Shown: piece by piece, positions 24,747 to 27,523 of the stretch
How the letters are laid out: each line of letters starts with the position of its first letter
Position numbering within the stretch: position 1 is the stretch's first letter
Source of the DNA: Spirosoma sp.
GTDB lineage: Bacteria > Bacteroidota > Bacteroidia > Cytophagales > Spirosomataceae
Reading direction: 5' to 3'
Length of the DNA stretch: 32,989 bases
NCBI GenBank assembly: GCA_014377625.1
Contig: JACMPG010000167.1
Location: 1 to 32,989, forward strand
Position numbers and translations under genes: made by a program
The notes under the pieces: generated by a model
Seen by the model: the letters and a program-made list of their open reading frames with translations, nothing else
Databases searched by the model: none
Told to the model about the DNA's origin: nothing

Positions 24747-25778
24747 TTATCGGGTAGCCAGCAGTTCGTTGACCAGAACGGGCGAACCGACGTACAGTGC
24801 CGATCGCTGGTGCAGTTCGGTGGGTGTTACGTCCAGCACCGCCTGTTGCCCGTCAGAAGCCTGCCCACCGGCCTGTTCGGCAATGAATCCCATCGGAAAG
24901 CATTCGTACAGCAGCCTGAGTTTGCCGAACGGCGTTTTCTGGGTGGGTGGATATAGATAAATGCCACCCTTGATCAGATTGCGGTGGAAATCAGCCACCA
25001 GCGACCCGATGTATCGACTCGTCAGCCGACGCTGCCGACAGGTGTGCAGGTACGTCTGTACGTAGTCCGGATAGTCGGCCATGTTGCCATCGTTGCATGA
25101 AAAAATAGATCCGGTTCGTAGCTGCTGCATCGTTGCGTGGGAGAGAATATATTCGCCCAGCGAGTGATCGAGCGTGAAGCCGTTGACGCCCTGCCCGGTC
25201 GTAAAAATTAGAATAGTGGATGAGCCGTAGAGTACGTACCCGGCTGCTACCTGCCTGCGTCCCCCCTGAAGAAAATCGGCCACTGTTGCATCAGAACCAA
25301 CGGGCGAAATCCGGCGGTAAATAGAGAAAATAGTACCGATGGAAACGTTTACGTCAATGTTGGATGAGCCATCCAGCGGGTCGATGGCCACGACGTACTT
25401 CCCGTTGGCGTTGCCCGTCAGAATCATATCATCGTCTTCTTCGGAGATGATAGCGCAGACTTCCCCACCATTTCTCAGTGCCCGGATGAACCGGATGTTG
25501 GCAATAACGTCGAGTTTCTGCTGCGCTTCGCCCTGCACGTTATCCGTCCCGCTGGCACCCGTCACGTCGATCAGCCCCGCCCGGTTAATTTCGCGGTTAA
25601 CGATCTTACTGGCCAGAGCAATGTCGCGCAGTAACTGCGACAGCTCACCGGTAGCGAACGGGAACGCGTTCTGTTCGCGTAGAATGAATCGGTCGAGCGT
25701 CGTCCCCACCGGTAGGGCCAGTTCCGGCGGGGCTGAGCGGGGGATAGTGGGCAGCGGTGTATCGGCAAGTGAAATCAT
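24747..25778 (-). CDS. fbp: Fructose-1,6-bisphosphatase class 1
   Basis: A 343-residue FBPase that hydrolyses fructose-1,6-bisphosphate to fructose-6-phosphate, the irreversible late step of gluconeogenesis. The metal-binding signature [10 protein letters not shown] is at 133-142, with the upstream acidic pair E113-E114 (ISEED), and [11 protein letters not shown] occurs near the C-terminus. Its ATG overlaps the pckA stop as ATGA (25778-25775), so translation of the two genes is probably coupled. Together they form an operon dedicated to gluconeogenesis. Confidence 0.97.
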
Positions 25779-27379
25779 ACGGAGAGTGATGTAGGAGTGA
25801 CAGACCGGCGTTTTTCCGAAAAAAGGTCTTTTAGATCATTGGCTTTCTCATCATATACCGTTGGGTCGCTCCAGGTCTGACGTGGATCGAGTATCGAATC
25901 AGGTACGTCGGGGCAGGTGGCTGGCATGGCCAGGTCGAAAATGGGGTGGGTATTGAAGGGGCTGGCCGATAGGGTTCCCGTTAGTACGGCCCGGATTAGG
26001 GCCCGGGTGTAGCTCAGGTTTATGCGCTGCCCCACGCCGAAGCCGCCACCTGTCCAGCCGGTATTGACGAGCCATACCGTAGCGCCCTGTTCCTGAATTT
26101 TTTGACCCAGCATCCGGGCGTATTCGCTCACCCGAAGCGGCATGAACGCGGCTCCAAAGCACGATGAGAACGTGGCCTGTGGTTCCTTAACACCCATTTC
26201 TGTTCCTGCTACTTTTGCCGTGTAGCCCAGTACGAAGTAGTCCATAGCCTGTTCGGGCGTTAGTCGGGCAAGGGGAGGCAGCACACCGAACGCATCGCAA
26301 GTCAGAAAAAAGATGTTTTTGGGATGCACGCCTACCGACGGTTCGATGGCGTTACCGATAAAGGTAATAGGGTACGAAGTACGGGTGTTTTCTGTCAGGG
26401 TCGTGTCCGTATAATCAACGGTTCGGGAGTTGGGCAGCAGCCGGGTATTTTCGACAATAGAGCCGTAGCGGATGGCATCGAAAATCTGCGGTTCCCGTTC
26501 GCGGGTCAGGTCAATAACTTTAGCGTAGCAGCCACCTTCAAAATTAAAAACCCCGTTGGCACTCCAGCCGTGTTCATCGTCACCAATCAGCCCGCGTTCG
26601 GGGTCTGCCGAGAGGGTCGTTTTGCCCGTACCCGACAACCCGAAATACAACGCTACGTCGGTCGGGTCGTCTAAGCTGACGTTGGCTGAACAGTGCATTG
26701 GCAAGACTTCCTGTTGCGGCAACAGGAAGTTGAGGGCCGAGAAAACCCCTTTCTTGATTTCGCCCGCGTACCCCGTTCCGCCCACCAGAATCGTGCGTTT
26801 TGAGAGATTTAGGATAGAAAAGTTGGTGCTCCGCGTCCCGTCTACGGCAGGGTTAGCGTGAAATTCCGGAATGGCAATGATCGTAAAATCGGGCGTGAAG
26901 CTGGCCAGTTCGCTGGGTAAGGGGCGCAGGAACATATTGGTGCAAAACAGATTCTGCCAGGCCTGTGTGGTCAGGATACAGAGTTTTAGTTGATGGTTTG
27001 GATCGGCACCGGCCAGAGCGTAGCGGACGTAAACAGGGTGGTGTTCAACAAAATGGCGCATCCGGCGATGCAGTTGATCGAATTGCTCTTCATGAAATGG
27101 TAAATTGACCGTTCCCCAGTCAACCCGCGAATCGGTCAGCTGGTCACGAACAATGTAACGGTCTTTGGGCGACCGGCCCGTATAATGGCCCGTGGTACAC
27201 ATGAGTGCCCCGGTGTCGGTCAGTACTCCCTCACCCCGGCGCAGCGCGTGTTCGATCAGGTTGGCGGGTGTGGGTTGAAAATACACTTCTTTATTCGTTT
27301 GAATCCCTAAAAAACGCAGGGCTTTTTCTTCGGGCAACAGACTCCTCGACGTAGAGGAGAGATTGACTTCGGCTACCAT
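25775..27379 (-). CDS. pckA: Phosphoenolpyruvate carboxykinase (ATP)
   Basis: A 534-residue ATP-dependent PEPCK that converts oxaloacetate and ATP to phosphoenolpyruvate and CO2, the entry step of gluconeogenesis. Visible motifs are GRSPKDRY (68-75), [12 protein letters not shown] (200-211), the P-loop [13 protein letters not shown] (247-259), and DDEHGW (267-272). Length matches the ATP-type family (about 530-540), not the GTP type (about 600). It is first in the pckA-fbp operon, which diverges from an ScfR-type regulator. A TATATTTG -7 box and phased inverted repeats lie upstream, so regulation by that protein is a reasonable inference. Confidence 0.97.
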
Positions 27380-27416
27380 TACAGGGGGTGTTTATGATGA
27401 GTGTTCATTTACCTTA

Positions 27417-27424
27417 CAAATATA
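27417..27424 (-). promoter_or_regulatory. -7 box (TATATTTG) of the pckA-fbp promoter
   Basis: The minus strand reads TATATTTG, an exact TAnnTTTG match. The predicted start near 27411 leaves a leader of about 32 bases to the pckA ATG at 27379. No clear TTG is present at -33; that place is occupied by the central palindrome of the operator array. A weak -33 could mean that the promoter depends on an activator. Confidence 0.5.
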
Positions 27425-27425
27425 T

Positions 27426-27479
27426 TTAGCGATTACGAATAAAAAAGCGAACGTTCGCTAATTATATAATAATCGCTAA
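27426..27479. promoter_or_regulatory. Symmetric operator array between pckA and the ScfR-type regulator
   Basis: Three elements share one centre of symmetry: TTAGCGATTA (27426-27435), the perfect 14-bp palindrome AGCGAACGTTCGCT (27446-27459), and TAATCGCTAA (27470-27479), the exact reverse complement of the first. The half-site AGCGA/TCGCT occurs four times. Element centres fall at 27430.5, 27452.5 and 27474.5, spaced exactly 22 bp, about two helical turns. The array abuts the pckA -7 box. It is the obvious candidate binding site for the adjacent regulator, by inference only. Confidence 0.65.
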
Positions 27480-27515: not shown

Positions 27516-27523
27516 TATTTTTG
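27516..27523 (+). promoter_or_regulatory. -7 box (TATTTTTG) close to the regulator start codon
   Basis: TATTTTTG matches TAnnTTTG and ends 4 bases before the ATG at 27528. A TTTG at 27489-27492 lies 23 bases upstream, slightly longer than usual. If used, transcription would begin at or next to the start codon, giving a leaderless mRNA. Confidence 0.4.

Follow-up and report, generated by a model that had tools for sequence, protein, structure and literature searches.

What acts on the 148-bp gap that separates pckA from a divergently transcribed regulator gene, here called REG1, and to what effect? The gap lies in a window (the whole stretch of DNA analysed, 32,989 nucleotides) from a Spirosoma genome, G000, of 5.33 Mb in 378 contigs and 85% completeness. 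In a REG1 scan of GTDB species contigs, the closest named relatives of REG1 were from Cytophagales, e.g. Rudanella, Spirosoma and Fibrella. The gap holds a symmetrical array of short repeated half-sites, and the features considered are as follows.

24747-25778, minus strand: fbp, class 1 fructose-bisphosphatase (NF006778, 464.8 bits; cut-off 368)
25775-27379, minus strand: pckA, ATP-type phosphoenolpyruvate carboxykinase (PF01293, 695.7 bits; TIGR00224, 655.4 bits, cut-off 590.05)
27417-27424, minus strand: candidate -7 element of pckA, TATATTTG on that strand (CAAANNTA starts 28-30 bp left of the core in 29/40 loci)
27426-27479, no strand: whole predicted operator array of four AGCGA half-sites, dyad centre 27452.5 (from sequence, shuffles and relatives)
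27428-27432, plus strand: outer half-site facing pckA, 18 bp from its inner partner and close upstream of the candidate pckA -7 element
27446-27459, no strand: core palindrome AGCGAACGTTCGCT, with inner half-sites at 27446-27450 and 27455-27459 (at most one mismatch in 40/40 aceB- or pckA-linked loci)
27473-27477, minus strand: outer half-site facing the regulator gene, 18 bp from its inner partner; the less conserved side
27516-27523, plus strand: candidate -7 element of the regulator gene, TATTTTTG, an uncertain assignment from sequence, very near the start codon
27528-29018, plus strand: regulator gene REG1, 496 aa, with an XRE helix-turn-helix, an IrrE/PrpR-like middle and a C-X2-C-X4-C tail

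The main target of the array is presumed to be pckA. The start of fbp overlaps the end of pckA, and fbp is also found 3' of pckA in several relatives; the two genes are probably carried on one transcript. On the other side of the gap, the candidate -7 box of the regulator gene nearly abuts the ATG; the gene may be transcribed without a leader or may start at a later codon.

Symmetry, spacing and conservation of the array

Three symmetrical elements had been named in a preliminary description, and their positions and common centre are exactly as claimed there: TTAGCGATTA at 27426-27435, the core palindrome, and TAATCGCTAA at 27470-27479 are all symmetric about 27452.5. The "perfect global dyad symmetry" claimed for the array is true of these three elements but not of the full 27-bp arms, which match at 20 of 27 pairs (7/7 among the inner pairs). 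The "22-bp phasing" proved to be the centre-to-centre distance of the elements chosen, whereas the AGCGA/TCGCT half-sites start at 27428, 27446, 27455 and 27473, in steps of 18, 9 and 18 bp. The conserved metabolic-side step in relatives is also 18 bp: an outer half-site with at most one mismatch was located at offset 18 in 33 of 40 loci and at offset 17 in 3 loci, while no other offset between 8 and 29 had one in more than 1 locus. Given that B-DNA has 10.5 bp per turn, such steps do not place the four half-sites on one helix face, as had been proposed.

The letters of the array and their arrangement are non-random. When the 148-bp intergenic sequence was shuffled 2000 times, no shuffle reached the observed 20/27 dyad matches (the best reached 19), and 60 dinucleotide-shuffled windows together held a single AGCGA-N4-TCGCT. 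A perfect palindrome of 14 bp was unremarkable by itself, with 2 observed in the window versus 2.7 per shuffled window, and one arose in 68 of the 2000 intergenic shuffles.

Conservation was assessed in relatives of the locus, for which the best 80 of 573 confirmed stretches from the REG1 scan were taken. A spacing scan of 82 loci (724 kb; the window and the G000 paralogue of REG1 included) found AGCGA-N4-TCGCT 41 times, in 37 loci, and each other spacing from 0 to 15 between 0 and 3 times. Among 81 regulator loci from the same best 80 of 573, the linked gene was aceB in 31, pckA in 9 (including the window) and neither in 41. The malate synthase A call was made with TIGR01344 for L035 alone (754.8 bits, above cut-off) and extended to the other aceB genes by similarity to L035. 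At regulator-linked loci, aceB was mostly followed by isocitrate lyase (aceA). One aceB, at L073:2210-3722 of Hymenobacter qilianensis, is split into three overlapping frame pieces, by frameshifts or sequencing errors.

At the linked metabolic gene, the core was present with at most one mismatch in all 40 loci (31 aceB and 9 pckA; again from the best 80 of 573); 35 of these cores were exact, and the 5 with one mismatch all read GGCGA. Within 500 bp upstream of the regulator, such a core was found in 31/31 aceB-linked, 7/9 pckA-linked and 5/41 unlinked loci, two of the latter group (L054 and L081) being without usable upstream DNA and one of the five with a core (L049) adjoining acs. In the two pckA-linked exceptions, L013 and L016, an exact core lies directly upstream of pckA, which is itself away from the regulator start; in these two and in L144, where pckA and regulator start are apart, the array follows pckA. 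The preliminary description had named absence of the array from orthologous pckA/regulator pairs as an outcome that would count against an operator, and had pointed to glyoxylate genes as further places to look. An exact AGCGA-N4-TCGCT was found in 9/9 such pairs, and the same array lies upstream of aceB-aceA elsewhere. With the core kept in every linked locus, comparison strongly supports the view that the array is an operator for the neighbouring regulator.

The outer half-sites are kept unequally. With at most one mismatch and at 17 or 18 bp, the metabolic-side half-site was found in 36/40 loci and the regulator-side one in 22/40 (at least two mismatches in the other 18); both were kept in 19/40. 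Among the outer boxes of the 40 sites, AAAGCGAA was the commonest (7), with TTTGCGAA and TTAGCGAA occurring twice each. The arms between the half-sites are AT-rich and weakly conserved; what is conserved is the half-site letters and their spacing.

REG1 and related regulators

The N-terminus of REG1 is an XRE-type HTH (HTH_3, 53.1 bits; Pfam cut-off 23), and the protein contains an IrrE-like domain (Peptidase_M78, 34.5 bits; Pfam cut-off 22). REG1 scored below the gathering score of Pfam ScfRs PF09856 (18.5 vs 24 bits) and, at full length, below the cut-off of the NCBIfam RamB equivalog NF038139 (58.3 vs 700 bits). An AlphaFold2 model of REG1 from 44 aligned rows (pLDDT 83.0, pTM 0.70) was compared with the PDB. 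The six best matches were chains of Mycobacterium tuberculosis PrpR (E 7.0e-12 to 3.4e-9), followed by PprI/IrrE; the PrpR matches had TM scores of 0.61-0.70 by target length and 0.41-0.45 by query length, an rmsd of 5.6-6.6 and 16-18% identity. Fold matches to the HTH included C.BclI and C.AhdI. A profile of the part of REG1 behind the HTH matched PrpR sequences only (4, E 2.4e-4 to 1.3e-3).

Four cysteines, C368, C458, C461 and C466, are invariant in 44/44 aligned rows (44 of the 81 loci were aligned), and the last three form the C-X2-C-X4-C motif. This motif was lined up with that of PrpR by hmmsearch, the stretch alone scoring just 1.6 bits; C368 was paired with Cys363 of PrpR by order and domain, the profile alignment having no stretch over Cys363. 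In PrpR, the C-X2-C-X4-C cysteines and Cys363 hold a [4Fe4S] cluster that is needed for CoA binding and activation (PMC6765138). By likeness to its relatives, REG1 may carry an Fe-S cluster and respond to an acyl-CoA or CoA ligand. Linkage to genes of acyl-CoA or acetate assimilation, a trait of the ScfR/IsaR family, was seen as well (aceB at 31/81 loci, acs at L049); the window's own linked genes, pckA-fbp, belong to gluconeogenesis. Taken together, these data suggest that REG1 is probably a distant, divergent branch of the ScfR/IsaR family (PrpR, RamB, PccR), below its curated cut-offs, and works like it.

Published descriptions permit a comparison with known systems. REG1 resembles M. tuberculosis PrpR in its IrrE-like/GAF fold, its C-X2-C-X4-C tail and its association with acyl-CoA metabolism, and both sites lie between divergent genes; the 17-bp PrpR site has two close TTTGC(A/G)AA-type boxes, TTTGCAAA and TTTGCgAA, one base apart, and the boxes of MtRamB read TTTGC(A/G)AA (PMC6765138). 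The Bacteroidota array differs in its half-site, AGCGA(A), in its 14-bp core with outer half-sites at 18 bp, and in its linked genes, pckA or aceBA. Closer in spacing is the class 2 RamB of Paracoccus denitrificans, an ScfR-family protein encoded divergently from a glyoxylate-cycle operon, whose two boxes are separated by an 18-bp spacer; there, CoA esters convert the tetramer to dimers, and repression as tetramer and activation as dimer have been proposed (PMC10370305). The symmetric array of four half-sites and the AGCGA core set the Bacteroidota sites apart from it, in a comparison of site arrangement. RamB of Corynebacterium glutamicum likewise controls acetate and glyoxylate genes, through a 13-bp site, AA/GAACTTTGCAAA (PMC4448153). 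The array letters do not fit AA/GAACTTTGCAAA, and REG1 reached, as given above, a small part of the RamB cut-off. Restriction-modification C proteins bind paired dimer sites, as a tetramer on a four-half-site operator. They share with REG1 the HTH fold and with the array the four-half-site arrangement; unlike REG1, as proposed here, they are without a ligand or Fe-S domain.

Open-licence papers (title and start of abstract) yielded no operator or regulator acting on glyoxylate or PEPCK genes of Bacteroidota. The earlier suggestion that the motif may be undescribed thus stands for those papers, but the half-site resembles TTTGC(A/G)AA of mycobacterial PrpR and RamB, a likeness that makes the array a variant of a known operator type. 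Within this known kind of operator, it stands out by a new core and new targets and by the symmetry of its outer sites.

Promoter geometry and the sign of control

Bacteroidota promoters carry a -7 box with the consensus TANNTTTG at -12 to -5 (PMC6847099, PMC9723704), and in Flavobacterium the -33 element is much weaker than the -7 element (PMC6847099). Because Bacteroidota use TANNTTTG, a view of the promoter as a sigma-70 one was dropped. CAAANNTA, the complement of TANNTTTG, starts before the core, at a distance of 30 bp in 24 of the 40 linked loci, of 29 bp in 3 and of 28 bp in 2, so that 11/40 are without a -7 match at this distance. A CAA abutting the core, which is the -33 TTG on that strand and lies 20 nt from a -7 box at -30, was present in 22/40 loci; the TTG is missing in 18/40, including the window and the other four loci with a core centred on CG, and the C of the abutting CAA alone is found at 30/41 sites. 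In the window, we infer a pckA transcription start near 27412; counted from there, the array would span roughly -16 to -65, with its dyad near -40.5. Towards the regulator, relatives have TANNTTTG at varied distances, and the core lies anywhere between 56 and 1524 bp from the regulator start (39 loci). With the offset to the metabolic -7 box near-fixed and the distance to the regulator variable, the positional constraint falls on the metabolic promoter. Equal control of both promoters, as first proposed, is therefore not borne out: the array holds its place with respect to the metabolic promoter, and in L013, L016 and L144 it accompanies pckA.

Occlusion, i.e. repression, best accounts for a half-site lying between -33 and -7, and the geometry, from which the sign is read, favours repression of the pckA promoter. 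The missing -7 matches (11/40) and the missing -33 TTG (18/40) could reflect dependence on an activator.

The reading we favour, with a probability of about 0.68, is that the array is the operator of the divergent REG1, from a Bacteroidota branch of ScfR/IsaR, and that REG1 represses pckA(-fbp) until relieved by an acyl-CoA or CoA ligand together with the Fe-S cluster. A REG1 dimer would bind the core palindrome, and the outer half-sites, 18 bp off, would be filled by further REG1 subunits, the whole probably forming a tetramer; published relatives of REG1 form tetramers (PMC10370305, PMC6765138). Bound REG1 would cover the pckA(-fbp) promoter from just upstream of -7 to beyond -33 and so repress it. 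In the presence of an acyl-CoA (or CoA), and with its Fe-S cluster intact, the complex would then loosen or rearrange and permit gluconeogenesis from acyl-CoA-derived carbon.

A less likely reading, which nonetheless deserves serious weight, keeps the same operator and REG1 and gives the protein a chiefly activating role at pckA, or a dual one; RNA polymerase would then be contacted from the dyad near -40. The inferred dyad at -40.5 would suit this, as would the loss of the -33 TTG in 18/40 loci, all five CG-core ones among them, and activation is described for Paracoccus RamB and for PrpR (PMC10370305, PMC6765138). Against it stand the conserved half-site between the -7 and -33 positions and the TTG retained in 22/40 relatives; moreover, cores before ilvD, described below, differ in their distance to the gene start and in some cases follow a TANNTTTG-like box (by eye, uncounted), which suits a repressor.

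Distribution, apparent change of target and duplicated regulators

To follow the operator through whole genomes, 40 of the 41 sites, all but that of L049, were made into a sequence-only profile, R1. In G000, R1 matched the window array at E 2.9e-10, a value that is not independent, the site being a training row, and a site before ilvD at 2.8e-4; weak matches lay before 2-isopropylmalate synthase (0.35) and at C6:9488 (0.52; without a core; L131). A one-mismatch pattern scan of G000 gave 46 places versus 25 for a reversed-pattern control, and was set aside as too loose to list targets. Among 61 genomes of the family, R1 matched at E<=0.001 in 36, and a REG-family protein was found at E<=1e-60 in 55. 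In the 6 genomes without such a protein (weaker protein matches lie outside this count), R1 had no match at E<=0.001, and 19 of the 55 with the protein were also without one.

The ilvD gene was detected at threshold in 60 of the 61 genomes. Within 420 bp before it, AGCGAANNTTCGCT with at most one mismatch was found in 50 of 53 testable genomes with a family protein versus 0 of 6 without (E<=1e-60; Fisher p 1.9e-6, kinship ignored), a count that left out G003 (no ilvD match at threshold) and G007 (43 bp left). The ilvD site of G000, at C9:55639 (L129:2040), is a AGCGAAATTTCGCT-like palindrome, and the flanks of ilvD sites often read GCGTNATTACGC (by eye). The leuA (2-isopropylmalate synthase) site, at C120:4177 (L130:2677), is a one-mismatch core with a ATTACGCAATC flank as at ilvD.

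In the 61-genome sample, a linked regulator of the REG1 clade was found in 20 genomes, and all 20 have the core at pckA or aceB (19 exact; one mismatch in G006). The REG1-array pair is patchy within its genus, since all three same-genus genomes sampled (G004, G035 and G051) have the paralogue only and neither REG1 nor a pckA array. G010, G043 and G045 carry a core at pckA or aceB, with one mismatch in the first two, and no adjacent regulator, so that a more distant family member must serve there; in G045, a core also precedes fbp-pckA. Other cores, all in one genus (g2), lay just before a 483-aa glyceraldehyde-3-phosphate dehydrogenase in three genomes (one checked by HMM) and just before a gene for a 93-aa SCP2-domain protein in three (L134, L137 and L141; again one checked by HMM), in the last case with what looks by eye like a TonB-type receptor gene on the other side; those of L147, L150, L151, L164 and L166 had no clear target gene.

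That another regulator binds the array, the neighbourhood of REG1 being incidental, is improbable. Cores at ilvD and leuA, far from any regulator gene, and those at aceB or pckA in the three genomes without a neighbouring REG1 would fit such a view; the core in 40/40 linked loci argues against it, as does the lack of both profile matches and ilvD cores in the 6 genomes without the family (vs 36/55 and 50/53 with it). A structural DNA or RNA element (cruciform, or a terminator hairpin, dropped as the array is upstream of both genes) or a chance palindrome can practically be dismissed: the array is an inverted repeat in an AT-rich stretch, but it lies before the inferred transcription starts of both divergent genes, its half-site letters and spacing rather than its arms are conserved, and shuffles speak against chance.

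The linked genes point to a change of target. A search of 32 of the 61 genomes for isocitrate lyase found it in 7/7 with REG1 beside aceB, a contrast partly built in, as aceA is usually 3' of aceB. It was detected in 0/13 with REG1 beside pckA, three of which are 85-90% complete, and in 2 of 12 others (G043 and G045, which have aceBA with a core and no adjacent regulator), so that absence is common. In G000, isocitrate lyase was not detected; a remote malate synthase-like protein is encoded at C271:2086-3717 (L201; PF01274 155 bits; malate synthase A 234.7 of 594.5). In a quick tree with long branches, used for broad groups only, the aceB link was spread over the family and the pckA link was confined to few groups, with 4 changes. 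The glyoxylate shunt genes aceB-aceA, linked in 31/81 loci vs 9 for pckA, are the probable earlier charge of REG1, as judged from gene neighbourhoods, and operator and regulator together seem to have shifted from the shunt to PEPCK in genomes that lack the shunt.

The paralogue of REG1, REG2, offers a second line of comparison. In G000 it lies at C366:33316-34800 (L199; also L012), shares 45% identity with REG1 and has no core in the 320 bp upstream. Near it are a CoA-transferase gene (best model butyryl-CoA:acetate, 301.6 of 674.8 bits) and a LysR/OxyR-like gene (by eye). Because 34 of the 50 genomes with an ilvD core were classed as having REG2 only (a class that wrongly takes in G006, whose regulator is pckA-linked; the pooled count with and without the family is unaffected), REG2 is the likely binder predicted at ilvD. 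Among genomes with a single REG1-type protein, ilvD is without the core in G030 and G042 and has it in G001, G005 (with a mismatch), G032, G033, G048 and G049.

Where REG1 and another family member co-occur (n=12), the centre of the metabolic core was CG in 7 genomes, TA in 4 and AT with one mismatch in 1 (G006), and that of the ilvD core was AT in 10/10 readable genomes; a central CG marks the pckA clade that also has the paralogue. A centre other than AT was found in 11/12 two-regulator vs 3/8 single-regulator genomes (p 0.018), in a test made after the pattern was seen. Its rows are related, the CG ones forming a single clade; for G048 the pckA site was used rather than the aceB sites, which read AA and TA, and G010, G026, G043 and G045, with no REG1-linked operator, were left out. 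In the recognition helix, REG2 has S or T at the position of REG1 N42 in 7/7 CG-core genomes (L199, L265, L267, L269, L270, L271, L272) and in 1/4 TA genomes (L276), with N kept in L273, L274 and L275; the third paralogue of G002, G034 and G050 (L264, L266, L268) also keeps N. A link between HTH residue 38 and the central dinucleotide was dropped, as related rows confound it. The differences in core centre and helix suggest that two duplicated regulators may have been insulated from each other.

Different metabolic genes appear to have been placed under one and the same control switch, the site being found beside related regulators across many Bacteroidota, mostly with glyoxylate-cycle genes. 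More broadly, and tentatively, at somewhat less than even odds, these regulators may form a hitherto unrecognised Bacteroidota-wide Fe-S acyl-CoA regulon, in which the clade would have begun at the glyoxylate shunt and been re-wired to PEPCK/FBPase in lineages losing isocitrate lyase; where a second paralogue controls ilvD and leuA via AGCGAAATTTCGCT, the centre of the pckA operator would have turned to CG (or TA) and the recognition helices diverged, insulating duplicated regulators of one-operator origin. The analysis supplies a concrete predicted operator, a regulator family and a set of predicted targets. It also offers a natural series, from a single regulator through a switched target to a duplicated regulator with a changed core, in which the co-evolution of operator and regulator and the insulation of paralogues are directly testable.
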